A DNA stretch of 30,965 bases from a virus, in the IMG/VR virus record IMGVR_UViG_3300043420_001514, positions 1-30,965 of that record; one strand, written 5' to 3'. Both the position numbers and the translations under genes were made by a program. The notes beneath the pieces are model-generated. The model saw nothing but the letters and a program-made list of their open reading frames with translations, did no database searches and was not told where the DNA came from. The stretch's first letter is position 1; each line of letters opens with the position of its first letter. Shown piece after piece: positions 4,552 to 27,781 of this stretch.

Positions 4552-4759
4552 GCAGCCCATACCACTGACCGCGGCTCAGGCGCTTCGAGTGATCGCAGCA
4601 AAAGCCCTTGAGATCAAAAGGGCCAATGGCGAGCTACCTGAGCACTACCCGGATCTCCTCGGTGCTCGGACTGAACTCGACTCGCTTTACAAATTGCAGC
4701 AGCACCGGACGCAACGTGGCGTTGTCCACGGCCCTAAAAGCCCGCTCGTCTTCCAGTAG
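4544..4759 (+). CDS. Small hypothetical protein running into the recombinase gene
   Basis: ATG 4544 overlaps the upstream stop (ATGCCTGA arrangement). The first ~32 residues (MPEQPIPLTAAQALRVIAAK, then ALEIKRANGELPEHY) look like a genuine helical protein. The remaining ~40 residues are read entirely from the antisense of the recombinase 3' end (4634-4759) and look less natural. The original 3' part may have been lost when the recombinase segment arrived. No function is recognised. Confidence 0.45.
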   Translation: MPEQPIPLTAAQALRVIAAKALEIKRANGELPEHYPDLLGARTELDSLYKLQQHRTQRGVVHGPKSPLVFQ

Positions 4760-5968
4760 GAACTGGTAATCCGGCATCAGCCACGGATCCACGATGCGAT
4801 CCATCCGCATATAGGCCACCTGATCCCGCAGATCCAGGATCGTCTTCCGCAGGCTTGGCACACCCTGTTCCTCCAGCTCTTCCAGCTGCCTGATCTGCTC
4901 ACGCAGCCGCGCCTCTTCTGGTGGAATCTCCGGTGGTGCATCCTCAGCCAGCAGCTGTGCCATCTGCTTGGCACGTTGCACAAGTGCCCGCGCCAACTCA
5001 TCCCTCACCCTGTCTTCTCTGACTGTCTTTCCGCATTGGCGGCACGACAGGTTGCGGCACTGGTATCTCGCCGCATGGGTCTGTTTGGCTGGTGTCTTCC
5101 AGCCCATGTACTTCCCGCAGCTACGGCACTGCAGCAGGCTCGTCAGCAGGTGCGCGTTGCCACCCTTCCTCTCCCTGGTCTTCGTCTCCCGCCGCGACAT
5201 CCAATAGCGCATTGCAGCGTTGTATTCCTCTGTGCTGATCAACCGCGGCGCACGGCCCCATTCGACCCGATCCCAGTTGCCAATCGACGTTCGCCCGTAG
5301 CCGATGCCCCCGCGCAGCATCGGATTGCGAACCCAGTTCAATAGGCCCGTCGCTGTTGGCTTCCACGGGAAGTCCTCCGGCAACCTTCTGATCGTCAACC
5401 TGAAGGCCAGCTGATCTGCCAGCAGCTGCTCAAACAGCCACCGTGCTTCCTGCCAGTGCTGGGGGTGCATGGCGGGCTTGCCATCAACTGCCACATACCC
5501 AAACGGCAGCCGCCCCCGTGCCAGATACCCCGCCTCTCTTCTCCGCCTTAAGCCATCGGCGCTCTTCAGCCCGATCATCCGCGCCTGCACCCGGTTCATC
5601 AGGCTGGTAACACCAGCTGACAGCAGCCCGCTCACCGACTGGTTCTCCCATACCTGCCCGAACAGGTCGCGTACTTCTGTCCCAGCAGTCGCGCATTCCT
5701 CCAGAAACTCCATATCGCTGCCGTCCCTGGCCAGCCGGCTCAGGTCAGCCACCAACACACGCCGCACCCGCCCCTGGGCCACAAGCAGCCGCAACTCCGT
5801 CCACCCTGGCCGCTGACCCTTAGACGCACTGCGCCGCTCGCTGATCACCCGGTCAACCCCTAGACGCTCAAACTCGGCCACCTGCATCTCGATGCTCGTG
5901 TCCTGCGCGTCCTGCATCGTGGAAACCCGCGCATAGCCGACCACCATCCGAGAATCCGGCCGGTTCAT
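4634..5968 (-). CDS. Large serine recombinase (site-specific integrase/excisionase type)
   Basis: A 444-residue protein that cuts and rejoins DNA at specific sites through a serine-DNA intermediate. The resolvase domain (about 8-140) has GYARVST with the nucleophile Ser16 and the DLSRLARDGSD motif with catalytic arginines. The recombinase domain (about 145-255) includes ARGRLPFGY. A zinc ribbon (CxxC at 281-284, further cysteines at 304, 309 and 312) is followed by a coiled coil (about 345-390). This is the layout of phage integrases and of cyanobacterial XisF-type excisionases, at the short end of the size range. It probably inserts or excises the element, but neither attachment site is visible. 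The gene is divergent from the ParB-terminase operon at 6026. Its 3' end overlaps the small plus-strand gene at 4544 by 126 bases. Confidence 0.93.
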   Translation of the reverse strand: MNRPDSRMVVGYARVSTMQDAQDTSIEMQVAEFERLGVDRVISERRSASKGQRPGWTELRLLVAQGRVRRVLVADLSRLARDGSDMEFLEECATAGTEVRDLFGQVWENQSVSGLLSAGVTSLMNRVQARMIGLKSADGLRRRREAGYLARGRLPFGYVAVDGKPAMHPQHWQEARWLFEQLLADQLAFRLTIRRLPEDFPWKPTATGLLNWVRNPMLRGGIGYGRTSIGNWDRVEWGRAPRLISTEEYNAAMRYWMSRRETKTRERKGGNAHLLTSLLQCRSCGKYMGWKTPAKQTHAARYQCRNLSCRQCGKTVREDRVRDELARALVQRAKQMAQLLAEDAPPEIPPEEARLREQIRQLEELEEQGVPSLRKTILDLRDQVAYMRMDRIVDPWLMPDYQFLLEDERAFRAVDNATLRPVLLQFVKRVEFSPSTEEIRVVLR

Positions 5969-6697: not shown

Positions 6698-7091
6698 ACG
6701 GCCGCAAAAAGTCAACAGGCGCTGCACTAAGGCCGAGCAGGAATATCGCATTCGCAAACTGATGACATTGGTTAAAAACGGCTGGGACACCAATCAGCTC
6801 CGCCAATACGTCCGCGAGGAATACGGATTGGGCAACAGTGCTGCTCACCGGCTTGTGGACGCTACCTATGACGCCATCGTTGACGGCATGAACGAGCTGG
6901 ACCGCAGGCGCATCAATGCCATCACTCTGGTGCGATTTGAGAATGCCTACCGGCTAGCAGTCAGTCAGCGCAACCCTATGGCAATGATTCAAGCCAATTC
7001 CCATATCGCCAATCACTGGGTCAAGAACGCACCGGAGATCACCACAGGTGCTGCCAATGCCGATGCCGATGACCCGGAGGAGGATTTCTGA
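6690..7091 (+). CDS. Probable small terminase subunit
   Basis: A GTG start at 6690 gives 133 residues, coupled to the ParB-like gene upstream (8-base overlap) and to the large terminase downstream (TGATG overlap). The N-terminal half is basic and holds a likely helix-turn-helix (YRIRKLMTLVKNGWDTNQLR, then QYVREEYGLGNSAAHRLVDATYD). The second half is an oligomerisation-type helix, and the tail is very acidic (DADDPEEDF). Small terminases recognise the phage DNA and load the large subunit. The position and DNA-binding head support this role, although the family is too diverse to confirm by eye. Confidence 0.7.
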   Translation: MTERPQKVNRRCTKAEQEYRIRKLMTLVKNGWDTNQLRQYVREEYGLGNSAAHRLVDATYDAIVDGMNELDRRRINAITLVRFENAYRLAVSQRNPMAMIQANSHIANHWVKNAPEITTGAANADADDPEEDF

Positions 7092-8554
7092 TGCCACGCC
7101 AGGGTCCATCGCTGGTGGAATGGGCGCAGCCGGGCAAGCTGCTGGATGACGAGGGCAGCGCCGCAGAAAAACGCCCCTGGGAGCAGCTGCCCAAAAAATG
7201 GCCCGAGTTTTCCCATGAAACGCTGATTGCATCCGGGGGCAAATATGTGCCCTTCGACCCATACAAATACCAGGTAGATCTGATACGCACGATCCGCAAC
7301 TGCACCAACACCTACGTGCTCAAGAGCCGTCAGACCGGCGTGAGCGAAACCGTGATCAGCTACATGCTCAGTCAGGCTATTCGCAAGCCGGCTTGGACCG
7401 GGGTGGTCTTCTCCAAGACCGGCGACGACGCCTCAGAGCTGGCAGCGCGAATCAAGGGCCAGGCGGCCACCCTGCGGAATCGTTGCCCGAAGTTCTCCAA
7501 GGACTCGATGCGCAAAATCGTCTTTGAAGGAGCTGGCAGTCTCCATTTTCTGCCGCCGACTGAGCGGGCCGCCCGCGGCATCCCCTCGGCCAGCTTCATC
7601 TTGTTTGATGAGGCTGCTTTCATCGATAAGCTCCAGGGCATCGAGACCGGTGCGCTGCCCACCACCTCGATGCTGGGTGATCGGGCCCGGCACGTCTGGG
7701 TCACGACCCCGAACGGTCGATCGGGCCATTTCTCGGATCACTGGCAGGAAGACCACGGCGAGCGGGTGATCGACCCGACACCGATGGGCGCCAGCGGGGT
7801 GCCGCGGCTGCAGATCAGCCCGGACAAGCAGTTCGCCAAAGTCGCGATCCACTACTGCCAGCATCCGATCTACGGGGCGGATCCGGGCTGGGCCGAGTCG
7901 ACCCGGCGGCGGCGTCAGCTGACCATGAAGCAATGGCGTCAGGAGTACGAGCTGGATTTCGCCGCCAGCGACTTCGAGATCTTCAGCCATGAGCTGATCG
8001 CCCAGGCCGAAGCCATGGGCGGCTGGGAGAACCCGCACAGGGGCCATCAATATGTGATGGGGATCGACCCGAACGGTGGCGGCAACGACAATTTCGCGAT
8101 CATCGTCGTAGATGTGTCCACGAGCCCTTGGCGGACAGTGGCGGGCTTCTACGAAAACCAGAGCTCCCGAGACTACGGGTTGCGCCATGCGGCGCGGCTG
8201 TTTGACGAGTATCAGCCAGAGCTGGTGGCGGTGGAGAAAAACGGTGTTGGCGCCGCGGTGGCTGAGGCCCTGGCCATCCTCCGACCGAGCGTGATGGTGG
8301 AGGAGGTCAGTACTACTCAGGTCTCCAAGGTATTGATGACCGATCGCATCGTGCTGCTGCTGGAACAGGGCGAAATCACGATTCCGCCGGACTGCTACAT
8401 CGGCAAGGAAATGCGCAACTTCCGTCAGACCGACAAGGGCAAGCGAGAAGCGGCTTCAGGGCACCACGATGATGCGGTGATGGCCTTGGCCCTGGCCTGC
8501 CATGCCGGTGCGACGCAGCGCCCGCTCGACAGCAGCTGGATTGCTATGGCCTGA
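7091..8554 (+). CDS. Phage terminase large subunit
   Basis: A 487-residue ATPase-nuclease that pumps phage DNA into proheads. The ATPase domain has a Walker A-like motif LKSRQTGVSET (77-87), Walker B FILFDEA (169-175) and the coupling motif VTTPNG (204-209). The RNase H-like nuclease domain shows MGIDPNGG (Asp326), VAVEKNGVG (Glu382) and the terminal HHDDAVMAL acid pair (Asp460/461). All key residues expected for an active enzyme are present and the length is normal. The start ATG 7091 overlaps the upstream stop. It is followed not by the portal gene, as usual, but by a 2.5-kb regulatory insert. Confidence 0.95.
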   Translation: MPRQGPSLVEWAQPGKLLDDEGSAAEKRPWEQLPKKWPEFSHETLIASGGKYVPFDPYKYQVDLIRTIRNCTNTYVLKSRQTGVSETVISYMLSQAIRKPAWTGVVFSKTGDDASELAARIKGQAATLRNRCPKFSKDSMRKIVFEGAGSLHFLPPTERAARGIPSASFILFDEAAFIDKLQGIETGALPTTSMLGDRARHVWVTTPNGRSGHFSDHWQEDHGERVIDPTPMGASGVPRLQISPDKQFAKVAIHYCQHPIYGADPGWAESTRRRRQLTMKQWRQEYELDFAASDFEIFSHELIAQAEAMGGWENPHRGHQYVMGIDPNGGGNDNFAIIVVDVSTSPWRTVAGFYENQSSRDYGLRHAARLFDEYQPELVAVEKNGVGAAVAEALAILRPSVMVEEVSTTQVSKVLMTDRIVLLLEQGEITIPPDCYIGKEMRNFRQTDKGKREAASGHHDDAVMALALACHAGATQRPLDSSWIAMA

Positions 8555-10055: not shown

Positions 10056-11000
10056 TCAATCAAGATCCAGTGGCAGCTGATACAGCCCAGGCTCCTTTCT
10101 GCGCTGTTCCGAATCATCGGCATCAGTGCCGGCCAGTCGCTTCAGTTGGGCGACAGCACTCTTGAGACGCAGCGAAACAGCCTGATGGCTGATTCCCATC
10201 TCCTGACTGATGGCCTTGAGACTGGCCCCCTCTAGGAAACTGCGCCGAACGATCATCTGATCGCGCTCCGGCAGGGTCTCGATGAACACCAGAATCTGCT
10301 CCAGCGCCAGATCGTCCTCCAGGTGCTCCTGGCCGCGCCGTGCATCCTCGCCGCCGATCAGGTCACCTAGAGCGCTGCGGTTGCTGTCCAGCTGGGCCGG
10401 CTTGTCGAGTGAGATCAGACTGCGGCAATGGGCGGCTCGGCGGGCCCGTGACAGCGTGCTGCCTGAAAGCTCCAGTCGGTCGTTCAGCTTTGCATCGGTG
10501 ATCTTTTCGCCCGCCTGGTGCATCCGCATCACTTCGGCGTCGATCTTGCGCATATCCTCCTGCAGATTCACCGGAATGCGGATCGTGTCTGCATTGGCGA
10601 TGTAGCGGGAGATCGCCTGGCGGATCCAGTTGAAGGCATAGGTGGAGAACTGATACCCCCTCGATGGGTCAAACAGTTCCACTGCCCGGATCAGGCCAAA
10701 GGTTCCTTCCTGGATCAGGTCATCCAGCGTGATGGCCGGATGGGTCAATTTGCGGCTGCTGGCAATGTGGACAACCAGCCGCAGATTGCATTCCACCATC
10801 CGGCGCTTGGCTCGCATTCCGGCTCGCTTGACGCCAGGAGGCGCTGCGTCAGGCCCCCCTTCCCAGTCCAGCCAGCGGCGAATTAGTCGAGCAGTTCGCA
10901 TCGACAGGTTTGGCGTCATCACTTGGAAGCGGCCGATGCTGTTGAGGAGCTGCTCGGTGGAATCAGGCACAGCGAGGCGCTGTTGACGGCGGCGTCTCAA
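10056..11000 (-). CDS. RNA polymerase sigma-70 family factor encoded by the element
   Basis: A protein of up to 314 residues. Region 2 is well conserved (about 65-135: [49 protein letters not shown]), with the promoter-melting aromatic residues in place. Region 3 follows (about 140-200), and region 4 holds a clear helix-turn-helix (about 255-288: [20 protein letters not shown]). A 25-residue tail ends in [12 protein letters not shown]. It resembles cyanobacterial group 2 or 3 factors, with a divergent region 1.2. The start is uncertain: TTG 11000 or GTG 10970. The gene is divergent from the portal gene with 89 bases between them, so it could direct late transcription of head genes or its own cassette. 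Confidence 0.92.
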
Positions 11001-11089: not shown

Positions 11090-13198
11090 ATGGACGACAG
11101 CGAAGTTCGGCAGGATGGTGTTCTGGTCAATGCCCTGACCGGCATGGGCCTGCAGCAGGATCGGGGCCAGTACACCGGCATTGCCACGCCCAGATTCCTG
11201 AGCGAGCTGGACCTTGATGGGCTCTACCTCAACAGCTGGCTGTGCCGCAGGGTGGTGGATGTGGTGGCTTCCGAAGCCACGCGCAACGGCTGGGACATCG
11301 CCCTGGGGGACGACACCAAAAAGGCCCGCCGGCAGTCCGATGACCTGATTGCCGCCGGGGAAAAGCTACGCATCCGCAAGCATCTGGCCTATGCAATCCA
11401 GATGGCGCGGCTGCATGGTGGCGCCGCGATCATCCTGCTGACCGATGAAGGCGGCCAGCAGAAGCTCGATCAGCCCCTGCGGCCAAACCGGCTGAAGCGC
11501 ATCAAAGGCCTCCACGTCCTGGACTGCTGGCGCATCTGGCCGGCACCGGGCTGGAGCGGTGTTGGCAAACCTGAGCAATACCAGTTCAACACTGAACGCG
11601 ATGGCGACTTGAGGCAGTACGGGCTGGCCGACCTGCAGCAGGTCACCATCCACGCCAGCCGGCTGCTGCGCATTGAGGGAGACAGCATCCCCTGGCGTTA
11701 CAAGAGCCATTTCAAGTGGTGGGGCGTGAGCGTGCTGCAACCCCTGTGGGAGGTCTTCAAGCGCTACGAGACCGGCCAGACCAGTGCAGCGGCGCTGCTG
11801 CATGACTTCGATCAGTTCATTCACAAGATTCCCGGCCTTGGCGGCATGATCACGGCCGGCAATCAGGAAGCCATCACCCGCCGGTTGGAGCTGAACCAGA
11901 TGGCCCGATCGGTCTACCGGGGCCTGGTGCTCGACGCCAATGAGGAGGCCAGCTTCATCACCCGCTCGGCGGCCGGCATCAGCGACATCCTCGACCGGCT
12001 GGTGCAGGAGGTGACCGGGGCCAGCAAATTGCCCCACACCAAGCTCTGGGGCGAGTCGCCTTCAGGCCTGGGTGCCACCGGCCGCAGCGAGGACCGGGCC
12101 TTTGCGCAGGACATCGCCGAGTACCAGGAAGACGTGCTGCAGGAGCCCCTGCGGCAGTTCTACGAGACGCTGATGATGTGCTCGGAAGGGCCTTTCACCG
12201 GTGAGCCGCCGGATGACTGGCGGGTGCAGTTCCGCCCGACGTTTGTGATGACCGACGAGGAGACTGCGACCCTGCGGCAGGCGGTGGCCGCGGCGGACAG
12301 CCAGTACATCAATGCCGGTGTGCTGGCCCCGAATGAGGTGGCCCTGGCCCGCTTCGGGCGGCCGGAGTTCAGCCTCGACACCACGCTGATTGACCGGGAA
12401 TCCGATGGTTCGATCAAACAGGAGGAGGAGCCGGGCATGCCCGAGTTCGGCGGCGATTTCGGCCAGTTTGATGAGGACTTCGGCGCCAAACAGCCTCCGG
12501 CTGCCGCCGGCCCTGCGGGGGTTGGCGGCCCGGCCGCACCCGGCGGCCTGGATGGCCGTGAAACGACAGATGCTGCCGATGAGCCCTGCTGCCAGGCCTG
12601 CGCCCGCGGCGAGCAGTGTGAGGACGACTGCCCGGCGCAGGACGGGGAAGAATGCGGCTGCGAGCACAGTGATGAGAGCAAGGAGAACGATCCGGCCCGT
12701 CACAAGCATCCCGATAAGGTCGGCCAGGTGATGCACCGCTGGAAGCACGGCACGCTGCACAGCGGCACCGGCCGTAAGGGCGAACACCGCGGCCCTGTTG
12801 GCTACCCCGGCGGCCAGAAGCAAGCGATCGCCATTGCGTTGAGCATTGCCGGCAAAGGCAATCGCAAGCGGGGCAAGACTCGCACTGTTCGCACCGATGC
12901 CGTCTGCCTGCCGGCACGGCTAAAGGTGGCTGGCCTGATGGTCGACACGCGGATTGACGGCACCGGTCGGTTGGTGGGGCCCTATGGCCAGCCCACCAGC
13001 TATGAGGCCGTGGTGGGCCAGGGAGACAGCGGTATCTGGGAGGTGATGGACAGCGCCACCGGTGAATGGCTGGCGGTGGTGGGCGTCGCTGACCGGCGTC
13101 TGATCGAGCAGGCGGCGCCGGGCGCCAAGATCCGCCCGCTGGATTCGCTTGATCTGGCTGCGATGGGCATTCGCTGCGATGCCTACTGCGAGCCATGA
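11090..13198 (+). CDS. Phage portal protein (DUF1073 type) with C-terminal extension
   Basis: A 702-residue protein. Residues about 30-440 match the DUF1073 portal family: SWLCRRVVDVVASEATRNGW, MARLHGGAAIILLTDE, the central TGQTSAAALLHDFDQFIHKI, then VTGASKLPHTKLWGESPSGL with the characteristic G-S-P-S-G-L element and RPTFVMTDEETATLR. The portal is the dodecameric ring through which DNA enters the head. Some databases give this family an anti-CBASS (Acb1) name, but the portal core seen here and the neighbours favour a portal. Beyond ~450 the protein is unusual: an acidic and glycine/proline linker, a cysteine cluster (500-525, nine cysteines), a short domain with HRWKHGTLHSGTGRK and GGQKQAIAIALSIAG (about 543-589, a DUF6496-like motif), and a final beta-rich domain. 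The next gene starts within its stop codon (ATGA). Confidence 0.9.
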   Translation: MDDSEVRQDGVLVNALTGMGLQQDRGQYTGIATPRFLSELDLDGLYLNSWLCRRVVDVVASEATRNGWDIALGDDTKKARRQSDDLIAAGEKLRIRKHLAYAIQMARLHGGAAIILLTDEGGQQKLDQPLRPNRLKRIKGLHVLDCWRIWPAPGWSGVGKPEQYQFNTERDGDLRQYGLADLQQVTIHASRLLRIEGDSIPWRYKSHFKWWGVSVLQPLWEVFKRYETGQTSAAALLHDFDQFIHKIPGLGGMITAGNQEAITRRLELNQMARSVYRGLVLDANEEASFITRSAAGISDILDRLVQEVTGASKLPHTKLWGESPSGLGATGRSEDRAFAQDIAEYQEDVLQEPLRQFYETLMMCSEGPFTGEPPDDWRVQFRPTFVMTDEETATLRQAVAAADSQYINAGVLAPNEVALARFGRPEFSLDTTLIDRESDGSIKQEEEPGMPEFGGDFGQFDEDFGAKQPPAAAGPAGVGGPAAPGGLDGRETTDAADEPCCQACARGEQCEDDCPAQDGEECGCEHSDESKENDPARHKHPDKVGQVMHRWKHGTLHSGTGRKGEHRGPVGYPGGQKQAIAIALSIAGKGNRKRGKTRTVRTDAVCLPARLKVAGLMVDTRIDGTGRLVGPYGQPTSYEAVVGQGDSGIWEVMDSATGEWLAVVGVADRRLIEQAAPGAKIRPLDSLDLAAMGIRCDAYCEP

Positions 13199-14553
13199 GT
13201 CAGGAACGCAGGGAACGGCTGGCCCAGGCACTCAGCGATGAGTTGCGGGGCCTGGAGGATGCGCAGATCAAAAGGATCGGGCGGATCTTTGATGCAGCCC
13301 TGAAGGTCACGATCGAGCGGGTCTACCAGCTGCTCGACAACATCGATGCCCAGCCGTGGTACGACCCCAAGACCACGCCAGGCGCCTTTCAGGGATCGAC
13401 GCCTGACGGGCCGGTGCCGATCGAGCCGGTGCAGAAGAACCAGGCGAAGCTCTACCTGGAGGGGCAGTTGCTGCAGGACCTTCGCCGAGCCCTGGATCAG
13501 ATGCAGCTGACGCCACAACAGCTGCAACGGCTCGATCGCGAGCTGGCCACCTTGTTCAACCGGGCCCAGGACCTTGGCACCGAATACGCCACCCAGCTGC
13601 AACGGGAAGAGCTGGAGCCAGCGCTGAGCTCAGCGAATCGGCCGCCGGAGCCTGATCCAGTGCTCAGCCAGTGGCCGGATCGCGAGTACCAGGAGGGGCA
13701 GCGCTTCACCCGTCTGTTCGATTACGCCGGCGCGGTGGCGGCTGCGGAGCGGGACTTCAAGAGCCTGAGCGAGAACTACCGGCAGCAACGCGATGCGGCC
13801 ACCAATGATCACGTCCGCAGGGCCAAGAATTACTACTTCAAGTGGTGGCGGCACTGGGGCGACACCGTGCAGTTCCTGACTGGCCGACAGATGGCCACCG
13901 GGCCAGATCCGCGCACACTCAAGCGGGAACTGCAAAAGGCCATCCCCAACGTGAATGAGGCCTTCCGCAACCGGGCCGAGACGATCGCCCGCACTGAAAC
14001 GCTGCTGGCCAGTGGGGAGGCCCAGGAGCGCAGCTACCGGCAGATGAACGTCGGCTTCGTGCAATACCAGGCCACGTTTGACGATCGCACCTGTGAGTTC
14101 TGCGCGCCGCGCCATGGCTGCCTTTACTGGATCGGCTCCGTGAAGGCGCCAATTCACCCGAACTGCCGCTGCACACTGACACCGGTGACGCTGGAGGCCT
14201 TGGCGCTTCAGAACGCCATGGCGGAGGACGGTGGGCCGAGCTGGGAGGAGGAGGCCCAGAAAACGGCCGCAGCCGCTGAGGAGCATTTCAGGCGGGCCAA
14301 TGGCGAGGACGCCAAGATGCGGCCCATCGGCGGACCGGGCCAGGGGCGCGGAACTGGCGATTTGCCGCTGATGGAGAGGAATGGGTTGCCGGCCACGAAG
14401 CGACGCCAAAGCCTGCCGGTGAGCGATCCGATGAACGCCGGTGCGCAGTCATGGCCAGCGGGAAGCCCGGTATGGGATCCGCGGCGGGGCTGGCTGGACC
14501 CAAGCGCCCGGCAGGCCTACGAGGCGGTGGTGGCTGAGGTCAAGGCCCTTTAA
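13195..14553 (+). CDS. Phage head morphogenesis protein (MuF/SPP1 gp7 type)
   Basis: A 452-residue minor head protein. The diagnostic block is at about 258-328: RNRAETIARTETLLASGEAQ, YQATFDDRTCEFCAPRHG and IHPNCRCTL, with the conserved cysteines 300, 303, 309, 324 and 326 that build the fold. The N-terminal 250 residues are helical and charged, as usual. The C-terminus (about 340-452) is a low-complexity linker with no fused toxin, although MuF proteins often carry one. The protein is expected to sit inside the prohead near the portal and may be ejected with DNA. Its start overlaps the portal stop by four bases. It ends the late unit before the hairpin array. Confidence 0.93.
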   Translation: MSQERRERLAQALSDELRGLEDAQIKRIGRIFDAALKVTIERVYQLLDNIDAQPWYDPKTTPGAFQGSTPDGPVPIEPVQKNQAKLYLEGQLLQDLRRALDQMQLTPQQLQRLDRELATLFNRAQDLGTEYATQLQREELEPALSSANRPPEPDPVLSQWPDREYQEGQRFTRLFDYAGAVAAAERDFKSLSENYRQQRDAATNDHVRRAKNYYFKWWRHWGDTVQFLTGRQMATGPDPRTLKRELQKAIPNVNEAFRNRAETIARTETLLASGEAQERSYRQMNVGFVQYQATFDDRTCEFCAPRHGCLYWIGSVKAPIHPNCRCTLTPVTLEALALQNAMAEDGGPSWEEEAQKTAAAAEEHFRRANGEDAKMRPIGGPGQGRGTGDLPLMERNGLPATKRRQSLPVSDPMNAGAQSWPAGSPVWDPRRGWLDPSARQAYEAVVAEVKAL

Positions 14554-14653: not shown

Positions 14654-14660
14654 GACAGCC

Positions 14661-14839
14661 AAAGGAGACGGCCACCTCCTTTTTCCTGAACGGGAAAGGA
14701 GACGGCGATCTCCATTGAAAAAGAAGGAGACGGCCGCCTCCATTAAAAAAAGGAGACGGTGATCTCCTTTTGCTGAACGGGAAAAGGAGACGGTGATCTC
14801 CTTTTGCTGAACGGGAAAAGGAGACGGTGATCTCCTTTT
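14661..14839. repeat. Six tandem hairpins of the GGAGA-N6-TCTCC type (terminator array)
   Basis: Hairpin units lie at 14661-14682, 14698-14713, 14726-14741, 14748-14771, 14782-14805 and 14816-14839. The last three are identical: AAAAGGAGA, loop CGGTGA, then TCTCCTTTT, repeated every 34 bases with the spacer GCTGAACGGG. Each has a U-run on both strands, as intrinsic terminators do. The first three are diverged (loops CGGCGA, ACGGCCAC, ACGGCCGC). The array lies between the convergent head operon and the minus-strand gene ending at 14850. Confidence 0.9.
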
Positions 14840-14849
14840 CTCGACCCGC

Positions 14850-17035: not shown

Positions 17036-17065
17036 ATCATACATCAGCTGTTCACGTTTGTGAAC
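17036..17065 (-). promoter_or_regulatory. Promoter with GTTCAC palindrome operator
   Basis: GTTCACAAACGTGAAC on the minus strand (17065-17050) is followed after 8 nt by TATGAT (17041-17036), close to the ideal -10 box. The operator overlaps the stop codon region of the upstream gene (stop at 17052-17054), so the cassettes are directly abutted. Confidence 0.8.
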
Positions 17066-17423
17066 GGCCCCGGTCGATGGCGCTTTGCCTCAGGGCTCTA
17101 GCCTTGGCCAGGTATTGGTCATAAATCTCCGGCGGCATTTCGGCTTCGGCCACTTGCTTGAAAAATACGCCCAATGGGAACTCCGCTCTTAAGTCTTCCA
17201 GTCGTCTTTGCCTGGCTTCGTTTGCGGCTTTTCGCATCTGTCTCAGGGATCTGCGCAAAGATATAAGCCGTGCCTTGCGACTGCCAGTGGCATGGCGCAA
17301 GACCTTGTCCACCTCCTGGAGGACGCGATGGCAGTCGTCGGGCGGAACAGCTGCGGCAAGATTCGTTGTATTGATCTTGCGCTTAAGCACGGCAGACCAA
17401 AAAGACCATTTCTCTTCATCCAT
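17052..17423 (-). CDS. Basic helical protein after the Csx16-like gene
   Basis: A 123-residue protein whose ATG overlaps the stop of the Csx16-like gene by eight bases. It is rich in arginine, lysine and alanine (HATGSRKARLISLRRSLRQM, RKAANEARQRRLEDLRAEFP) and likely helical throughout, so nucleic-acid binding is possible. No family is recognised. As the last gene of the cassette headed by 18938, it is a natural functional partner of the Csx16-like protein, though this is only positional. Confidence 0.65.
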   Translation of the reverse strand: MDEEKWSFWSAVLKRKINTTNLAAAVPPDDCHRVLQEVDKVLRHATGSRKARLISLRRSLRQMRKAANEARQRRLEDLRAEFPLGVFFKQVAEAEMPPEIYDQYLAKARALRQSAIDRGRSQT

Positions 17424-17742
17424 CCAGCAGGCTCCTTTCGGTATGAAGCCGACGCACCTGGAAGGTGTTGATTACAGCCCCCGCTGCATCCATCTCTTGC
17501 ACCGTGAGCAGCCCGCGGTTGAAGCGATCTCGATCGGCTCGGTCCAGCCCTGGCATATGAACCTCCGAGACGGTCTGGGCAAAGGCCGCCACCCAGTAAG
17601 GCAAGGTGCCAAAGACATTCCGATGTACCACGCTGTCCGGGGTGGCATAGGGAATCACGGGCCCGCGAATGCCTTTGTCGGCTAGCCACTCGACCAGACT
17701 TTCGTTGCGGGTCACAATCAGTGGATCCGAAAAGTTATACAT
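17416..17742 (-). CDS. csx16: Csx16-like protein (putative ring nuclease/cyclic-oligoadenylate family)
   Basis: A 108-residue protein. It follows the Csx16 (VVA1548) pattern from end to end: LIVTRNESLVEWLADKGI (about 8-25, where family members have TRH-x-G-x-x-EWL), the strand VFGTLPYWVAAFA (43-55, family V-I-G-TLP-x-x-L-A-A), VHMPGLD (61-67) and RGLLTVQEMDAAGAVINTF (about 76-95, family RG-x-EL-x-x-x-x-M). The family is normally found with type III CRISPR systems and has been assigned to ring nucleases, which destroy the cyclic oligoadenylate signal. Here the conserved histidine after TR is asparagine. No CRISPR genes are nearby. In a phage element the obvious role is to blunt host cyclic-nucleotide defence. 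A TTG start at 17748 is an alternative. Confidence 0.78.
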   Translation of the reverse strand: MYNFSDPLIVTRNESLVEWLADKGIRGPVIPYATPDSVVHRNVFGTLPYWVAAFAQTVSEVHMPGLDRADRDRFNRGLLTVQEMDAAGAVINTFQVRRLHTERSLLDG

Positions 17743-17744
17743 GG

Positions 17745-18317
17745 TCAAGGAGATTCAGTGGAAAGGATGTTCTCGATGGCTAGCGCAGCTCGTAACTCTT
17801 GAAGGCCTAGTTCCCCCAGCCCTTTTACTTTTATAGGTGGCTGATCAGACCAATCCTTAAGTTCGTCCGCATAACGAAAACCTGCTCTAAGCAAGGAGTT
17901 TTGGGTTCTTAGTCTTAGCCCCAGGTCTTGTATCGCCACTCTGCGAGGTGCAATAAGGGGCTCGGATGGGCAAGCAGAGTCCGCTTCATAGTGCAATAGA
18001 GCTGCCGCGGCCATCTGGCCATGTTGTTCCAGCCAGCAGGCAATCTCTTCAATAATCTTTCGCGCTTCATTTACCCCCGTGCCGTAAGGCTCGCTTTGTC
18101 GTATAACTTCAGATACACGTCTCATCAAAAAATGGCGAAGATTGATGGACTTTTGGCTATTTAGCTCAAACCCAAGCTCGGTGACGAGTTTTTCAATCCA
18201 AAACCGTGTCAATCCAGTGGCCTCAGCCTGCTGCCGCTCTAGCTGCTTCAGGTCCACCTCAAGGGATGAAAGCCACGGTGGTGGCTGTGGATCGCTCGGG
18301 CGTTTTGCGTCAGTCAT
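17745..18317 (-). CDS. Protein with an RNA polymerase alpha-CTD-like domain
   Basis: ATG 18317 (overlapping the upstream stop by eight bases) gives 190 residues. The N-terminal 120 residues are helical with no match I know (IEKLVTELGFELN, RHFLMRRVSEVIRQ, ARKIIEEIACWLEQHGQMA). Residues about 128-182 read like the alpha C-terminal domain of RNA polymerase: IQDLGLRLRTQNSLLRAGFR, then ADELKDWSD and IKVKGLGELGLQELRAAL, with the helix-hairpin-helix GLGELG element. Alpha-CTD binds DNA UP elements and activators. A free copy could modulate host transcription or simply use the fold for DNA binding. It is directly upstream of the Csx16-like gene. This stretch (17745-18400) looks more AT-rich by eye than its neighbours, suggesting separate acquisition. 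Confidence 0.7.
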   Translation of the reverse strand: MTDAKRPSDPQPPPWLSSLEVDLKQLERQQAEATGLTRFWIEKLVTELGFELNSQKSINLRHFLMRRVSEVIRQSEPYGTGVNEARKIIEEIACWLEQHGQMAAAALLHYEADSACPSEPLIAPRRVAIQDLGLRLRTQNSLLRAGFRYADELKDWSDQPPIKVKGLGELGLQELRAALAIENILSTESP

Positions 18318-18756
18318 TGCGAAGCTCCAGTTCAATCAAAGAAACAATTTCATCAAAAGTTGCAAGCCAGTCATCTTGACATTTGCGTTCGATCAACCAT
18401 GCCTGCACTGCACAGATCGCGGCGCGGGATTCATGCAGGTACAAGTTAGGGTCAGCGCAGGCGCTGGGATGTATCGCTGCAGAAACACGCTCCACCAGCG
18501 AACGATCAGGTTTGGCCGGATCGTTGGGTTCCGCTGGCTGGGCGGCATCCAGCCCGACCTTGAGGCGTGAGCCGGTGCTCAGGATGGTTCGCCGATCGGC
18601 CTCCAGTGCCTCCACGCGGGCGCGGAGTTCAAGGACACAGGACGAAAGCTCTTTCGGGTCCAGGTCGCAAGGGGTGCCGCAGTATTCGCAGACCCACCAG
18701 TGTGTTGTCCCAGGCCCGCCCACGCTGACCGGTGCGCCGCAGCAGTCGGAGATCAT
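18310..18756 (-). CDS. Zinc-ribbon-like hypothetical protein
   Basis: ATG 18756 is supported by a strong ribosome binding site (GGAGGT) and by an ATGA overlap with the upstream stop. The 148-residue protein begins MISDCCGAPVSV, with further cysteines at THWWVCEYCGTPCD (23, 26, 30), forming a probable zinc ribbon. A short coiled coil follows (SSCVLELRARVEALEADRRT), and then a helical C-terminal part (RVSAAIHPSACADPNLYLHE, IERKCQDDWLATFDEI). Phages often carry such N-terminal zinc-ribbon proteins of unknown role. Confidence 0.65.
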   Translation of the reverse strand: MISDCCGAPVSVGGPGTTHWWVCEYCGTPCDLDPKELSSCVLELRARVEALEADRRTILSTGSRLKVGLDAAQPAEPNDPAKPDRSLVERVSAAIHPSACADPNLYLHESRAAICAVQAWLIERKCQDDWLATFDEIVSLIELELRND

Positions 18757-18938
18757 GGGGTTACCTCCAGCCCCTCGCCTTTCAGGCGGCGCCAATACAG
18801 CTCGCGCAGCCCGTAACAGAAAACCTCATTCTGATGGTCTCCAATGGCTTGGAAGTAACGCATTCGTAGCGTCTCCCAGCGCCAGCCCGAATAAAGCAAG
18901 TGCTCAGGGACGGACTCTGTTGGTGTTTTGCGTGGCAT
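18753..18938 (-). CDS. Small hypothetical protein, first gene of the Csx16 cassette
   Basis: A 61-residue protein starting MPRKTPTESVPEHLLYSGWR and containing WETLRMRYFQAIGDHQNEVF and LRELYWRRLKGEG. It is basic and helical and has no known family. It lies 49 bases after the operator-promoter at 18988-19017, and its stop overlaps the start of the next gene. It therefore heads the five-gene cassette that contains the Csx16-like gene. Confidence 0.65.
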   Translation of the reverse strand: MPRKTPTESVPEHLLYSGWRWETLRMRYFQAIGDHQNEVFCYGLRELYWRRLKGEGLEVTP

Positions 18939-21499: not shown

Positions 21500-22363
21500 A
21501 TGACCGTTCTCAACGAGATGGCCCGCCTGGTGCGGGACGAGCTGCTGACGCTGATTCAACCCGTCACGCTGCTGTCAGTCAACCCTGAGCGCAAAAGCGG
21601 TGCGGTAAGCGGCCGATTTCGGAGCAGTGGAATGCTTTTCGACTACAGCATTAGAGGTAACCGGGTTTCCTACAGGCCCGCTGGTAGTCGCTTAGATAGC
21701 GGCACTGCGGCAGCAGAGCTCTACGAAACAGTCGCCGAAGCCTGGCAGTTGGCATCGGAACTCGCTGAGGCGGCCGAACGCCTTGACACCCGCTGCCAAA
21801 AGCCAGACGGCACGATCTATGGCACCGCCGGCAAGTGCAAGCAGGGCCGTGAGCTGCGCCAGCGCAGCAGCGCCAAGCCGTCGTCCTCTGCGGGCGGGGC
21901 CGCAAAACCCAAAGCGAAAAAAACCGGCGCGAAAAAGCGTCAGAGCAAAAAAGCCCCTGATGAACGATTGGCGCGACTGGCAAAGCAAGAGATTTACGAA
22001 AGACTGGGTGCTTTTAGCGAGCAAGACAAGCTGACACCAGCTCAAAAGCGCACCCACATGCGGAGAGCGTTAAGTGCCGCAAAACGCCGCTACAGGGCAG
22101 GCGAAGATGCACCAAAGGATTTGCAGTCTCCTACGCATACGCCAAAGGCGCCAAGGCCCTACAGGAAATCCAGAAAGCCAAAGCCTGTAGCCGATCCTGG
22201 GCGCCTGCAGAAACTACAAAAAAGGGAGCTTGATAAAGCGTTTGGGTCAGGCGGCACTGGAATCGCCAACTTCAACACGATGCCCGCCCGTCAAAGAAAC
22301 AAGCTCCACGATGCGGCATTACGAAAAGCCCTCCGTGCCTACAACGCAGGGGAGGCAGTGTGA
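21500..22363 (+). CDS. Cysteine-module protein with basic C-terminal repeats
   Basis: A 287-residue protein. Its first 65 residues (VTLLSVNPERKSGAVSGRFR, then MLFDYSIRGNRVSYRPAGS) are related to residues about 335-372 of the 1181-residue protein at 24236, sharing the VSYRPA element. A helix then leads to the type A cysteine module: AAERLDTRCQKPDGTIYG and GKCKQGRELRQRSS (Cys99 and Cys113). A lysine/alanine linker follows. The C-terminal half holds two copies of a basic domain (about 160-202 and 239-285), each running from L-x-K-x-E through a turn to AYNAGE or RYRAGE. It shares the helix-RLDT-cysteine tag with all the large proteins downstream. I know no function. A DNA- or capsid-binding role is possible from the charge. 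Confidence 0.7.
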   Translation: MTVLNEMARLVRDELLTLIQPVTLLSVNPERKSGAVSGRFRSSGMLFDYSIRGNRVSYRPAGSRLDSGTAAAELYETVAEAWQLASELAEAAERLDTRCQKPDGTIYGTAGKCKQGRELRQRSSAKPSSSAGGAAKPKAKKTGAKKRQSKKAPDERLARLAKQEIYERLGAFSEQDKLTPAQKRTHMRRALSAAKRRYRAGEDAPKDLQSPTHTPKAPRPYRKSRKPKPVADPGRLQKLQKRELDKAFGSGGTGIANFNTMPARQRNKLHDAALRKALRAYNAGEAV

Positions 22364-23865
22364 TGAGAGTGCCTGAAAGGAGCCAAGTGCGCCTAGACGC
22401 ATTGCGTGAGCGAGCCGCCCATGCAATGCGTCTGGCAAGCCAAATGCGGCAAGGCACTCGTTGCAAGCGGCTTATGGAGCCACGGAAAGACTCCTACATG
22501 CAGGGTTTCCGCGAAGTCGTTAGCCGCCTGGATACACGCTGCCAGAAGCCTGACGGCACGATCTATGGAACCAGCGGCAAATGCAGGCAAGGCCGCGAGC
22601 TGCGTCGGAGAACCAGCGCCGATGGCCCCGGAGAGGGCAGGGCCTTTGCCGAGCAGTACGGCATGAAGTATTCGGCCGCCAATGAGCGGGTTGTCAGGCG
22701 GGCCCGCAGTGTCCCGGATGAAGCCTGGAACGAGCTTCCGGTCAAGAGCCTGCCCCATGGCACACAGCTGCAGGCCAACGAGAAAACCCTGAAGCTCAAG
22801 CCGATCAACAAGGTCGTTTCGGGTCGGGAGCCATTCCGAGAGGGCTACGTCACCAAGCTCTGGCAGGACGGGCGCGGACGGCTGCACGTTGCCGATGGCC
22901 ACCACCGGGTTGCCATGTATCACGCCTTGGGCAAGGACATGCCGGTGCGGATCATGTCGGAAGCCGATTACAAGCGGCTCAGCCGGCGTCGTGACAGCTG
23001 GAATGACAACCGCCTGGACACCCGCTGCCAGAAGCCTGACGGGTCGATCTACGGCACCGCCGGACGCTGCCGCCAGGGGCGCGAGTTGCGCCAGCGCAGC
23101 AGCACTGATCCCAGTAAGACGCCCACCACCTACGACCGGACGCCACCAGCCAACCCGCCCTACTGCTGCAACAAGCAGGTGGAGAAGGTTACCAAGGCGC
23201 TTCGGGCCCGCATCGCCAAGCTGGAGCCGGCCATGTCGGAGGAAATGATCGGCCTGGCCAACAAGCACGGGGCCAAGCTGGATGGGTTTCCGTACCGACT
23301 GAAATCGGAGAAAAGCCTGGGCAGAAAGATCGAAAATGAATACAAGTCCGACGAGTTTGGGGGTGATATAGAGAAGTGCGCCAACGCGATGTCGGACGTG
23401 GTGCGCTACACAATCAAAACAACAAACGAGAGATACACCGACACTGTTGAAAACGTGCTCTCTGATCTTAAGGCGAAAGGCTACGAGGCGCGGGTGAAGA
23501 ATTACTGGGAAGAGGGCCAGCCCTACAGGGGCATGAACGTGGCCCTGACCAGCCCAGACGGCCTCAAGGTGGAGCTGCAGTTCCACACGCCGCAGAGTCT
23601 CTACGTCAAGGAGAAGACCCACAGGCTCTACGAGGACTACCGGGTGGAGAAAAACGATGCCAAGCGCCGCAAGCTCTACGACGCGATGGTGCGGATCACG
23701 GACAAGCTGATCCCGCCATGGGGTACGGCCACCAATGCCGGCTCCCGGTCGCCCCAGGTGCGAGACTTGGCCCGTAACTCCGCACGAGAGCGCGAGCGGT
23801 TGCTGAGCATCGGCAAGCGCAAAAAAATGGGCTTCCAGACTGCCAAGGAAGCGGGGCTGACGTAG
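22363..23865 (+). CDS. RelA/SpoT-like nucleotidyltransferase with two cysteine modules and a ParB-like domain
   Basis: ATG 22363 (GGAGG eight bases upstream, overlapping the previous stop) gives 500 residues. Layout: helix; type A cysteine module (Cys60, Cys74); ParB-like domain (about 125-200: VKSLPHGTQLQ, VADGHHRVAMYHALGKDMPV); second type A module (Cys222, Cys236); then about 265-455 a RelA/SpoT synthetase-like domain. In the last I see RLKS (Arg312, Lys314), MSDVVRY (Asp345), YRGMNVAL and VELQFHT (Glu404, Gln406), plus KEKTHRLYE (His420). These are the equivalents of the pyrophosphokinase active-site residues, so it is probably active. The domain occurs in alarmone synthetases and in toxins that modify nucleotides or tRNA. 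Among phage head genes a toxin role is most likely. No hydrolase domain is present. Confidence 0.8.
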   Translation: MRVPERSQVRLDALRERAAHAMRLASQMRQGTRCKRLMEPRKDSYMQGFREVVSRLDTRCQKPDGTIYGTSGKCRQGRELRRRTSADGPGEGRAFAEQYGMKYSAANERVVRRARSVPDEAWNELPVKSLPHGTQLQANEKTLKLKPINKVVSGREPFREGYVTKLWQDGRGRLHVADGHHRVAMYHALGKDMPVRIMSEADYKRLSRRRDSWNDNRLDTRCQKPDGSIYGTAGRCRQGRELRQRSSTDPSKTPTTYDRTPPANPPYCCNKQVEKVTKALRARIAKLEPAMSEEMIGLANKHGAKLDGFPYRLKSEKSLGRKIENEYKSDEFGGDIEKCANAMSDVVRYTIKTTNERYTDTVENVLSDLKAKGYEARVKNYWEEGQPYRGMNVALTSPDGLKVELQFHTPQSLYVKEKTHRLYEDYRVEKNDAKRRKLYDAMVRITDKLIPPWGTATNAGSRSPQVRDLARNSARERERLLSIGKRKKMGFQTAKEAGLT

Positions 23866-24235: not shown

Positions 24236-27200
24236 ATGAGCCAGGTGATCGCCGATCTTGAACGCCGCCTGGCTCGACTTGATGCCCGCGCCAAAGCGGC
24301 CCCGGCCGGCCAGCTGGGCCTCGACCTGACCGGCGGCGGCGGAACCGGCAAAGGTCAGCCCTGCGGCCAGGGGTGGATCTCTAAGGACAAGACCTGCCAG
24401 AAGGGCGCCGGCGGCGGCAGCTACAGGCCAACGCCACAGGTGAAGGAAGGCCTCAGCATTAAGCCCATGGTCAGCGGCGAGATTGAGTATGACGTTGCTG
24501 CTGAACGCAAAAAAAACAAGGGCGCTTCAAAGTTTTGGCGTTCCAGCCGTAATGGCCGACCGGCGTATTCTCATTACTTCCGTGATCGGCAGGCTGTTGA
24601 ACACTGGATGGCGGAAGATAGTGCGCAAGCTGATGCCGACCTAGAAATCGGCTCTGACAAGCGCCGATCAAAAGAATGGCAGGCGGAGTTCAAGCAGAGC
24701 TACAGCGACCATCGTCTGATGTACGCGAATGCTTCCGACTACGACTTGCTTGAGAGCGCGGAGCGTTGGGTTGGCGCGGGCAAGGCGACCCGTGGCGGCA
24801 CCGCGATCGACGTGCGGATTGGCGGGAACAAGCACTCCCGGCCGATACGGGAAGGCTTCTTTGCCGCCAGCGCTGAGCCGGTGCTCACCAACCCAGGCCG
24901 CACAGATCCCGGCTTGGCGCCCAAGGCCAAGCCCCAAGGGCTGAGCGCCCAAGACGTGATCACGAGCAAGCGGCAGGGCGAGTTTGCCCGCCAGCAGCAG
25001 CAGGCTGCCAAGGCTGCTGGTGATCAGCGCGGTGCGGCGGCATGGCGCCAGCAGGAACGCAAGGCCGAGCGAGCCCGGCTACAGACCGCGATGCAGGGCA
25101 ACAGCCAGAGCCAGACATCGCTGTTCGGCGTCACCGAATACGACGAGACCCTGCCTTTGTTCGGCCGGAGGGATTCTGTAGACCGGGTGAGCCGGCTACT
25201 GGGGCAGGTGCTGTCCGAGTACCTGCCAAAACCACAGGTGATCGAGTGGGACGCCAGCCAGGGCACCACCCATGGGCGGGTGGTCTCCGAAGGCCTGCTG
25301 TACGGCTTCCGCTGTGATGCCGATTCCGTGAGCTACAGGCCCGCCTGGAGTGGCATCAACGAACGGCAGTGGGAATCCAGATCAGAGGGCTTCCTCCAGG
25401 CTCGCTACCCAGAGATGAGGCTGGACTTCAAGTTCAACCAGAAACGCAGCAAGCGCAAGTGCAGCAAGGGGTACGGCTGCGGCAATGCCTGCATCTCCAT
25501 GAACAAGGAATGCCGGGTGCAGGCCAAGAACGCCATCTCCAAAGCGCGGCTTAAGGCTCTGCGGGCCCTGGCGATGGAGGGCGATGCCACGGCCGCGCAG
25601 AAGGCCCGTGACGTGCAGATGCAGCGGGACGAGAAGGCTCAGGAGCTCAAGGGCGACCGCCAGGTGGGCAAGCTCAAGAAAATGCTGGAAGACCCGCGCA
25701 TCGCTGAGCTGGTCCGCACCGGCAGGCTGCCGGCAGAGGAAGGCAAAGCTGAGCAGGCGGCACCCAAGCCCGGCGACGTTCGCAACGTGACTCCCGATGG
25801 CATCGAGGTGGATCCCGATCGGTTCCAGTACAAGATCGGCAGCTCCGCCACCGGCGAGGTCGGGTCGCTGTCTGGCGTGCGGCGCTGGGATCCAAATCTG
25901 GCCGGCGTTATCAGCGTCTGGCAAGACCCTGATGACGGCAAAACCTATGTGGTGAACGGCCACAACCGCCTGGCGCTGGCCCGGCGCCTGGGGGCTGAGA
26001 ACGTCACCGTGCGCTACCTGGATGCACCGGATGCCCGCACCGCCAGGGCGATCGGTGCCAAGCAGAACATCGCTGAAGGCGCAGGCACCGAAACCGATGC
26101 GGCCAAGTTCTTCCGCGACACCGGCATCAAGACTATGGAGCAGGTCGAGGAGCAAGGTCTGCCGCTGCGCAGTGGCAAAGCGGAGAAAGGCCTGGCCCTG
26201 GCCAAGCTGCCCGAAGAGATGTTCCAGGACGTGGTGCAGGGCCGCCTGCGGATGCGGCAGGCCGCACTGATCGGCGCCAGCGGCCTGGATGAGGACAAGC
26301 AGCGCGAGGTCTACAAGGTCATCAAGAAGAACCCCAAGATTCAGGACGAGACCCTGGGCGAATATGTCGAGCAGCTCGCATTCTCGGAGCGGCAGAAGCA
26401 GACCACCCTGGATCTGTTCGGTGAGGATGAAACGTCAGTTGACACCGGCCTGGCCAGGGCCGACCTGACCAAGAGCATCAAGAAAACGCTGTCGCAGGAG
26501 GCCCGGCTGCTGGCATCGGTGAGCAAGAGCCAGAAGGCAGTCGAAATCCTGCAGGAGAAGGGCGGCAACGTGATCAACGTGGGTCAGAGCCAGGAGAAGG
26601 CCGGCGAGGCCAACACGGTGCTGCGCCTGTTTGACCAGCTGAAGCTCACGACAGGCCCGATCAGCTCGGCACTGGATCAGGCCGCGGCGCGAATCACGGC
26701 TGGCGAAAGCCGGTCGGCTGTGCTGAAAGAACTGCGCGAGCAGGTGGTGCAGGGCATGGATGAGGAGCTGCAGCGCCTGGGGCTCAAGCCGACAGGAGGC
26801 GACAGCACCAGCCGCGAGGCTGAGTCGATGAGCATGTTTGACGCTGCTGACCGGATCGCAGAGATTGAGGCCCGCATTGATGCGGCAAAGCGCAAATGCA
26901 ACACCGGTTACGCCTGCGGCAACAGCTGCATCTCACCGGCCAAGGAATGTCGCTCAGAGGGCAAGGCCAGCACCGGCAAGCAGCGCCTGAAGCGCCTTAA
27001 GAATCTGGCCGCCGGGGGAAAGACCGGCCGTGGCATCGGTCAGCTGCGTGGCGGCGCTGCAGCGGCCAAGGCGGAGGAGATCAACGCCTTGCGATCAGCC
27101 AAGGCAGCCCAGCTGCGCCAGCAGCGTGCCAAGCGACCCGGAGCCGGCCCGGCCCGTGAGCGCGGTGGCGCCCTAGTGGTCAGCGGCGGCCGTGGCCTGC

Positions 27201-27781
27201 AGACCCAGGGGCCGCCCGATCGCAACGGCACCAAGCGTCGCGGCGGGCTGGCCGATACCCTCAAAGCATCTCTTGATCAGATGAAAGCAGCCGATGCTCG
27301 CCAGTTCGGCCTGATCGCTGAGCAGCTGTTTGAAGCCAGCTGGAGTCTTGAGAAAAATGGCCGCTACAAGGGCATGAACAAAGGGCAGGCCAGGGATTCG
27401 TTTAAGCAGGACTTCATGCGCCAGATGCAGGCCCAGCAGGCTTCGCCAGAGGCCAGGGCCCGCTCGCAAAAGCTGCAGGAGAAAGCAGCCAAGAGCGGCA
27501 GCGTCGCTGGGGCGATGAAGGCCATCATCGAGGACATGAAGGCGGGCGACCAGCGCCTGCAGGAGATCGGCGAGAAGGCGATCGACTTGCGCCTTCAGGC
27601 CTTTGAGCTGGAGCAGCAGGAGGGCAACGCTTTGGGCACGCTGGGCGGCGGCTCCACCCGCCGGCGGCTGCGGGGGACAAGCCGATCGATGGGGAGACGG
27701 AAGGACTCGCCGGATCGTTTTGACGCCGCGGTGGGGCGACTGCTGCAGCTTGCAGCCAGGGTCGAGACCGGCGTTGCGTGA
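24236..27781 (+). CDS. Large multidomain polyvalent protein with three cysteine modules and a ParB-like domain
   Basis: A 1181-residue protein. Order of parts: N-terminal helix RRLARLDARAKAAPAGQLGL and type C module QPCGQGWISKDKTC (Cys43, Cys54); a charged domain; about 335-372 the VSYRPA domain shared with the protein at 21500; type B module KRKCSKGYGCGNACIS with NKEC (Cys409, 415, 419, 426); about 523-740 a ParB-like domain (IEVDPDRFQYKIG, TYVVNGHNRLALARRLGAEN, AIGAKQNIAEGAGTETDAAK) of the kind found in large polyvalent phage proteins; a helical region; second type B module (Cys888, 894, 898, 905); and a long charged helical tail. Polyvalent proteins travel with phage or conjugative DNA into the next host. 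No enzymatic domain beyond ParB-like is recognised. The stop overlaps the GTG start of the metallopeptidase gene. Confidence 0.75.
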   Translation: MSQVIADLERRLARLDARAKAAPAGQLGLDLTGGGGTGKGQPCGQGWISKDKTCQKGAGGGSYRPTPQVKEGLSIKPMVSGEIEYDVAAERKKNKGASKFWRSSRNGRPAYSHYFRDRQAVEHWMAEDSAQADADLEIGSDKRRSKEWQAEFKQSYSDHRLMYANASDYDLLESAERWVGAGKATRGGTAIDVRIGGNKHSRPIREGFFAASAEPVLTNPGRTDPGLAPKAKPQGLSAQDVITSKRQGEFARQQQQAAKAAGDQRGAAAWRQQERKAERARLQTAMQGNSQSQTSLFGVTEYDETLPLFGRRDSVDRVSRLLGQVLSEYLPKPQVIEWDASQGTTHGRVVSEGLLYGFRCDADSVSYRPAWSGINERQWESRSEGFLQARYPEMRLDFKFNQKRSKRKCSKGYGCGNACISMNKECRVQAKNAISKARLKALRALAMEGDATAAQKARDVQMQRDEKAQELKGDRQVGKLKKMLEDPRIAELVRTGRLPAEEGKAEQAAPKPGDVRNVTPDGIEVDPDRFQYKIGSSATGEVGSLSGVRRWDPNLAGVISVWQDPDDGKTYVVNGHNRLALARRLGAENVTVRYLDAPDARTARAIGAKQNIAEGAGTETDAAKFFRDTGIKTMEQVEEQGLPLRSGKAEKGLALAKLPEEMFQDVVQGRLRMRQAALIGASGLDEDKQREVYKVIKKNPKIQDETLGEYVEQLAFSERQKQTTLDLFGEDETSVDTGLARADLTKSIKKTLSQEARLLASVSKSQKAVEILQEKGGNVINVGQSQEKAGEANTVLRLFDQLKLTTGPISSALDQAAARITAGESRSAVLKELREQVVQGMDEELQRLGLKPTGGDSTSREAESMSMFDAADRIAEIEARIDAAKRKCNTGYACGNSCISPAKECRSEGKASTGKQRLKRLKNLAAGGKTGRGIGQLRGGAAAAKAEEINALRSAKAAQLRQQRAKRPGAGPARERGGALVVSGGRGLQTQGPPDRNGTKRRGGLADTLKASLDQMKAADARQFGLIAEQLFEASWSLEKNGRYKGMNKGQARDSFKQDFMRQMQAQQASPEARARSQKLQEKAAKSGSVAGAMKAIIEDMKAGDQRLQEIGEKAIDLRLQAFELEQQEGNALGTLGGGSTRRRLRGTSRSMGRRKDSPDRFDAAVGRLLQLAARVETGVA

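Follow-up and report, generated by a model that had tools for sequence, protein, structure and literature searches.

A gene for a Csx16-like protein in a viral genome raises the question of what such a protein might do away from type III CRISPR loci, where, according to PMC12409355, Csx16 is a cA4-specific ring nuclease. The gene considered here lies in an IMG/VR virus record of 30,965 bases (hereafter the window), in which an initial annotation had picked out a Csx16-like open reading frame in a phage setting. This reading frame (17416-17742) proved to be real: it encodes a protein of 108 residues on the minus strand, and its homology to Csx16 is upheld via its relatives. These fall into two types that we distinguish by the residue at motif I, namely asparagine in the N type, to which the window protein belongs, and histidine in the H type.

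The csx16-like gene and its phage

The features of the window that bear on the gene are the following:

17416-17742, minus strand: csx16-like gene, N type, 108 residues (ATG at 17742, stop at 17416-17418)
Landmarks in its protein: Asn13 (motif I), Tyr32 (site of the second His), His40, GTLPYW at residues 45-50
C-terminal landmarks: Arg-rich helix at residues 68-75, TVQEMDAAGA at residues 80-89
17745-18335, minus strand: gene upstream in the operon; its C-terminal half resembles the helix-hairpin-helix domain found at the C-terminus of RNA polymerase alpha (PF03118, 27.9 bits)
17052-17423, minus strand: downstream gene, 123 residues, function unassigned, no Pfam match above cut-off
18310-18795, minus strand: first gene of the cluster, 161 residues, function unassigned, as read from the sequence
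1542-2906: putative replication initiation protein
4634-5968: serine recombinase
7091-8554: terminase
10056-11000, minus strand: phage-borne sigma-70 factor, between the terminase and portal genes
11090-13198: portal protein (PF06381, E 2e-70)
13195-14553: Mu-F-like head protein

The source is a tailed phage, possibly incomplete, and no tRNA genes were found in the window. The csx16-like gene is embedded in a tightly packed minus-strand cluster, with its ATG 2 bases past the stop of the 17745-18335 gene and its stop in an 8-base overlap with the start of the 17052-17423 gene, an arrangement suggesting that these genes are probably co-translated. A search of viral contigs recovered no relatives of the 17745-18335 gene, while the 18310-18795 gene has weak relatives (35-40%) at 5 viral loci of related phages.

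Several further observations concern the rest of the window. On the stretch that separates the head gene from the minus-strand cluster, a 34-base unit occurs in five near-tandem copies (14660-14849), and every copy includes a short palindrome (AAAAGGAGA...TCTCCTTTT); having no spacers, these copies are ruled out as a CRISPR array. The putative replication initiation gene contains a 117-base direct repeat with 87% identity (1953-2192), which could be an origin. The record, short as it is, codes for two proteins with portal-family matches, the second match being to a PHROG portal family (E 1e-54) within an ORF of 1181 residues at 24236-27781. A 501-residue protein at 22360-23865 has PHROG head-morphogenesis matches and, in NCBIfam, a match far below cut-off to the C-terminal part of the XopAD/skwp model. 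Finally, PADLOC scored the sigma-70 factor as MzaA (E 3e-25), likely a cross-match of sigma-like regions, and its CARF model also touches this protein (E 0.004).

A divergent phage clade of Csx16

The window protein matches the Pfam profile Cas_VVA1548 (PF09652) over residues 9-96 with 26.0 bits (E 1.1e-5), narrowly (by one bit) above the cut-off of 25, and two PADLOC Csx16 models with E 3e-5 and 3e-4. Scans against NCBIfam up to E=1 and PHROGs up to 0.1 gave no match. Thus, of the profile match to Csx16 that had been proposed, the part resting on Pfam and PADLOC stands, but NCBIfam, the expected home of the named model, returned nothing. Likewise, all three blocks of the proposed Csx16 motif order are present, but the gap from VTR to VEWL is of 4 residues (VTR-NESL-VEWL) and not 5. 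The match of the window protein is thin taken singly, and what settles the homology is that the profiles of its relatives align. In full-length profile-profile comparisons the N-clade profile matched Csx16 sets from cells and archaeal viruses (P 2.4e-12 and 6.3e-10), and phage-borne H-type Csx16 with P 2.2e-25 and 45% identity. PF09652 scores are 20-32 bits in the N clade and 63-78 bits in the five phage H-type proteins scanned; among the 21 of 25 N-type records that were checked, 15 passed the cut-off, 4 fell short of it and 2 gave no match. A chance motif match was considered and rejected as an explanation. To judge from these comparisons the window protein is a divergent Csx16 homologue, and the H-type phage proteins are plain Csx16, fully canonical in appearance.

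Scans of viral contigs recovered 25 further IMG/VR contigs with N-type relatives and 5 with more distant relatives, a further scan adding one more of the latter (L130). A viral-contig scan with a cellular Csx16 query found none; hence, the H-type phage members were reached only through the N clade.

Examination of motif I across these sets revealed asparagine in the window and in 24/24 N-type relatives covering the site (the 25th, L007, is partial and without motif I), with Asn13 being invariant in 16/16 distinct N-type rows. Arg-His occupies these positions in 24/24 site-covering cellular Csx16 proteins recovered by a Pfam-profile search of 369 genomes of one class (25 matches less the partial L100; L086 is the same gene as L051), and in the Csx16 of the viruses Drs3 and PhiF3. 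It is also present in all 37 pattern-found cellular loci (39 less the partial L071 and L076), which we set aside as evidence because one of the two search patterns contains RHPGA. The six phage H-type contigs all keep the histidine, as Arg-His or, in L124 and L125, as Lys-His. The Arg-His that typifies Csx16 at motif I is accordingly lacking in the window protein and its N-type relatives alike. The asparagine after TR in place of histidine had been noted in the window protein by the initial annotation, which did not foresee that a whole conserved clade in phages would be marked by it, nor that the ordinary His type would occur in other phages.

Other positions have changed as well. The second conserved histidine of cellular Csx16 (His29) is Tyr in 13/16 distinct N-type rows, including the window, and His in the remaining 3/16. 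The clade displays a new invariant set, comprising Asn13, PYW and Arg68/71/73, and the old polar set is lost; it retains the motif-I Trp, GxxP and, in 15/16 rows, RG, with the segment DRDRFNRG-LTVQEMDAAGA being strongly kept.

In a tree of 51 rows (16 N-type, 5 H-type, as L125 equals L124, and 30 others chosen by hand) the 16 N-type rows lie on one branch with support of 100/100, its stem measuring 1.28 changes per column. The phage H-type protein of L122 is nearest to the N clade with support of 91/81, below the program's mark for firm support, and a single clade of all phage rows is neither shown nor rejected (p-AU 0.454). As read from this tree, the motif-I histidine was replaced once, in the single origin of the N clade. 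The five closest N-clade pairs gave dN/dS of 0.034-0.124; comparisons that involve the window itself are close to saturation or beyond it (pN 0.23-0.35, pS 0.61-0.95). The N clade is under purifying selection, and the pseudogene reading is ruled out by the dN/dS of 0.03-0.12 in close pairs. One replacement followed by tight conservation points to a changed function and not to decay.

AlphaFold2 models were built for the N type from its full set of 16 distinct rows (mean pLDDT 85.4, pTM 0.75) and for cellular Csx16 from 19 of the 37 rows (mean pLDDT 96.8, pTM 0.86). The two have an identical order of strands and helices, the N type having its middle helix shortened and an Arg-rich helix (68-75) added. 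In VIA-align searches with the N-type model all scores were weak (Z under 5), the top row being the Crn2 domain of Csx1-Crn2 (8y7g; Z 4.2, 75 residues, rmsd 3.0 A), followed by Cam1 (Z 4.1) and Cad1 (Z 4.0); cyclic-oligoadenylate proteins fill 12 of the top 14 rows, and 19 among the best 50. With the cellular Csx16 model as a control, the leading matches were resolvases and a lobe of a ribose-binding protein (Z 5.9), ahead of Crn1 (4.7) and Cam1 (4.6). Foldseek searches against PDB and viral models gave nothing at E<=0.001. By sequence, the sole match of the N clade to a solved structure under 0.001, a designed TIM barrel, spans 24 residues and was taken as chance; the cellular Csx16 query found none. 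The predicted fold thus agrees with a CARF-like one, which is unproven.

Gene contexts, distribution and probable host

The initial annotation stated that none of the neighbours is a cas gene, and this holds for what was searched. PADLOC named no Cas protein other than Csx16 among 20 window ORFs, no CRISPR-like array was found in the window, and searches of 32 viral records that carry csx16 (the window included, and many of them fragments) with Cas10 and Cas1 profiles gave no matches. By these profiles, placement in a type III CRISPR locus, a feature of Csx16, was not seen in any of the 32 records, and a phage-carried CRISPR locus is ruled out by the lack of Cas1, Cas10 and an array.

Related phages, several of about 70 kb, have terminase, portal and sigma-factor families in common with the window, and in most of them the csx16-like gene directly follows a DUF932 gene. 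Of 18 DUF932 relatives found, 17 were counted (the contig of L120 ends at the DUF932 gene); the slot behind it holds the csx16-like gene in 12/17 and lacks it in 5/17. In the latter five loci, with DUF932 70-78% identical, other small genes occupy the slot, and the csx16-like gene was not found anywhere on their whole contigs. This present/absent pattern indicates that it behaves as an accessory gene. The window differs from the related phages in that the gene is placed elsewhere, in the minus-strand operon. The small ORFs in the csx16-less slot (L115-L119) include a 133-residue protein without a Pfam match, which suggests this slot as a place to look for other candidate counter-defence genes.

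The six phage-like H-type contigs (L121-L125, L130) have an intact Arg-His or Lys-His Csx16 in varied placement, for instance beside terminase-portal genes in L124 and beside tail genes in L130. Cas1 and Cas10 were not found in them, and their Csx16 proteins are likely to be ordinary viral cA4 ring nucleases.

At the sensitivity used, the N clade is virus-only. A pattern-based search of genome_contigs recovered no N-type relatives, and an N-type search of the 369 genomes of one class gave one 40-residue match (E 4.5e-4) that is probably due to chance. Among 50,697 phage records the window protein matched only two Drs3 entries, both H-type, and an N-type relative had no match. Against plasmids, the window protein gave one weak match, to a Csx16 of Allomeiothermus. 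A protein annotated as Csx16 on an Allomeiothermus silvanus plasmid (L033, 5644-6429), encoded beside conjugation genes, contains two tandem Csx16-like units, the second reading THQ instead of TRH.

The host is likely a cyanobacterium, as suggested by the affinities of three window proteins, despite psbA (PF00124), sought as a cyanophage mark, being found in 0/11 records. The nearest isolates by terminase infect Cylindrospermopsis and Nodularia (identities of about 30-34%), those by sigma factor are the Synechococcus phages S-CBS1 and S-CBS3 (34-37%), and the best model for the serine recombinase, well under its cut-off, is XisF, which we take to be cyanobacterial. The recombinase was not found in plasmids.

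Possible functions and comparison with known systems

The initial annotation proposed that a phage-borne Csx16 would extend the anti-defence role of viral ring nucleases. This was in part anticipated: phage Csx16 as such is already known, having been reported in 2 of 28,114 phage genomes (PMC12409355), the two in question probably being those of Drs3 and PhiF3. Neither a Csx16 clade without the histidine nor a Csx16 acting as a sponge is described in the available portions of PMC12409355, PMC12830947 and PMC13148439. An anti-defence role is still the most economical reading, but the label of ring nuclease is too strong, with Arg-His, the family's most constant pair, gone clade-wide and the second His changed to Tyr in the window.

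We tentatively favor, at somewhat less than even chances, a phage counter-defence protein that derives from a ring nuclease and would more likely bind cyclic oligoadenylate than cut it. The ancestor would have been a Csx16 cA4 ring nuclease, in which the phage lineage swapped the Arg-His of motif I for x-Asn on one branch. The protein would adopt a small CARF-like Rossmann fold, probably as a dimer, bind cyclic oligoadenylate, most likely cA4, from a presumed host type III CRISPR system, and keep the bound signal away from the effectors; with the motif-I histidine gone, it would act mainly by sequestration, as a sponge, in place of the usual cleavage. We infer the sponge behaviour from the loss of this histidine only. 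The motif-I histidine of Csx16 is itself presumed to be catalytic; PMC12409355 nowhere uses 'mutat', 'catalytic' or 'active site'. That N-type Csx16 would bind and not cut is suggested by analogy with two Csx15 proteins described in PMC13148439: in CliCsx15 the H13A change, in the same motif, abolished cleavage and affected cA4-driven assembly less, and the orphan PfCsx15 acts by sequestering cA4. The cyclic-oligoadenylate proteins among the best fold rows also speak for this reading. Against it, the motif-I histidine of PfCsx15 was needed for cA4-driven assembly (PMC13148439), the fold scores are low, and the cellular control model has resolvases among its leading matches. Moreover, each residue in the polar signature of Csx16 (Arg, His, His) has changed, so that cA4 binding need not have survived. 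Hence, a different ligand, chemistry or role retains real weight.

A fuller version of this proposal, which we consider possible but doubtful, is that a captured ring nuclease turned into a non-cleaving sponge in phages probably of cyanobacteria, with its ligand face rebuilt (Asn13, PYW and the Arg-rich helix) and two histidines gained elsewhere, so that the N type would bind the same signal that the H type cuts.

These histidines also bear on the view, in our estimate rather improbable, that the N type is still a ring nuclease with which the phage would destroy the signal, either through in-line attack by a 2'-OH that Asn13 and further residues hold in position or with the help of a relocated histidine (His40 or His42). 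His40 is invariant in 16/16 distinct N-type rows and His42 present in 15/16; in the H-type phage rows the first of these sites is Gly or Arg, the second Val or Arg. The nearest relatives are the fully canonical-looking H-type proteins, and Crn1-type ring nucleases use Ser at the motif-I site (PMC13148439). Yet His42 is Asn in the window itself, His40 apparently lies at a strand start away from the motif-I loop, going by strand order, and Arg-His is otherwise invariant in the family.

It is also unlikely that the clade represents a regulatory or structural phage protein built on a captured Csx16 and unconnected with defence. The constant position beside the DUF932 gene in related phages would fit such a role, and the strongly conserved segment DRDRFNRG-LTVQEMDAAGA might serve as a protein interface; nevertheless, the gene is missing from slot and contig in 5/17 sister phages, and the window copy sits elsewhere. 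A switch of ligand, with the clade binding or degrading another defence signal (CBASS or a related cyclic nucleotide) via the Csx16 fold, seems quite improbable, for while the long stem and the exchange of the old polar set for a new invariant one would suit it, the nearest relatives are ordinary Csx16.

If the sponge reading is true, ring nucleases and sponges would not always be separate inventions, as one would be traceable into the other, and a single family would offer both states and bridge sequences. It would also add counter-defence against type III signalling to cyanophage-like phages. The matched pair of N and H types is suited to asking whether the motif-I histidine is catalytic in Csx16.

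AcrIII-1 (Crn2) is a viral ring nuclease directed against type III signalling. A Crn2 relative is the top, albeit weak, fold match of the N type (Z 4.2), but Pfam and PADLOC scans of the window gave no sequence match to it. PfCsx15 and CliCsx15 (PMC13148439) resemble the N type as CARF-like cyclic-oligoadenylate proteins, and binding without efficient cleavage is what we propose for the N type; they are of a different family, and PfCsx15 keeps its motif-I histidine. With cellular Csx16 the N type shares whole-length homology, the order of strands and helices, the motif-I Trp, GxxP and RG (15/16), but it lacks Arg-His, the second His (13/16 rows) and a CRISPR locus, and has the shorter middle helix and the extra Arg-rich helix. 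The Csx16 proteins of the methanogen viruses Drs3 and PhiF3 and of the six IMG/VR H-type contigs are, like the N type, virus-borne with no cas genes found nearby. The IMG/VR H-type proteins, the nearest relatives of the N clade, further share with it a C-terminal block of the PAEMDAAGA type, but keep the motif-I histidine (preceded by Lys in L124 and L125 and by Arg in the others) where the N type has asparagine.
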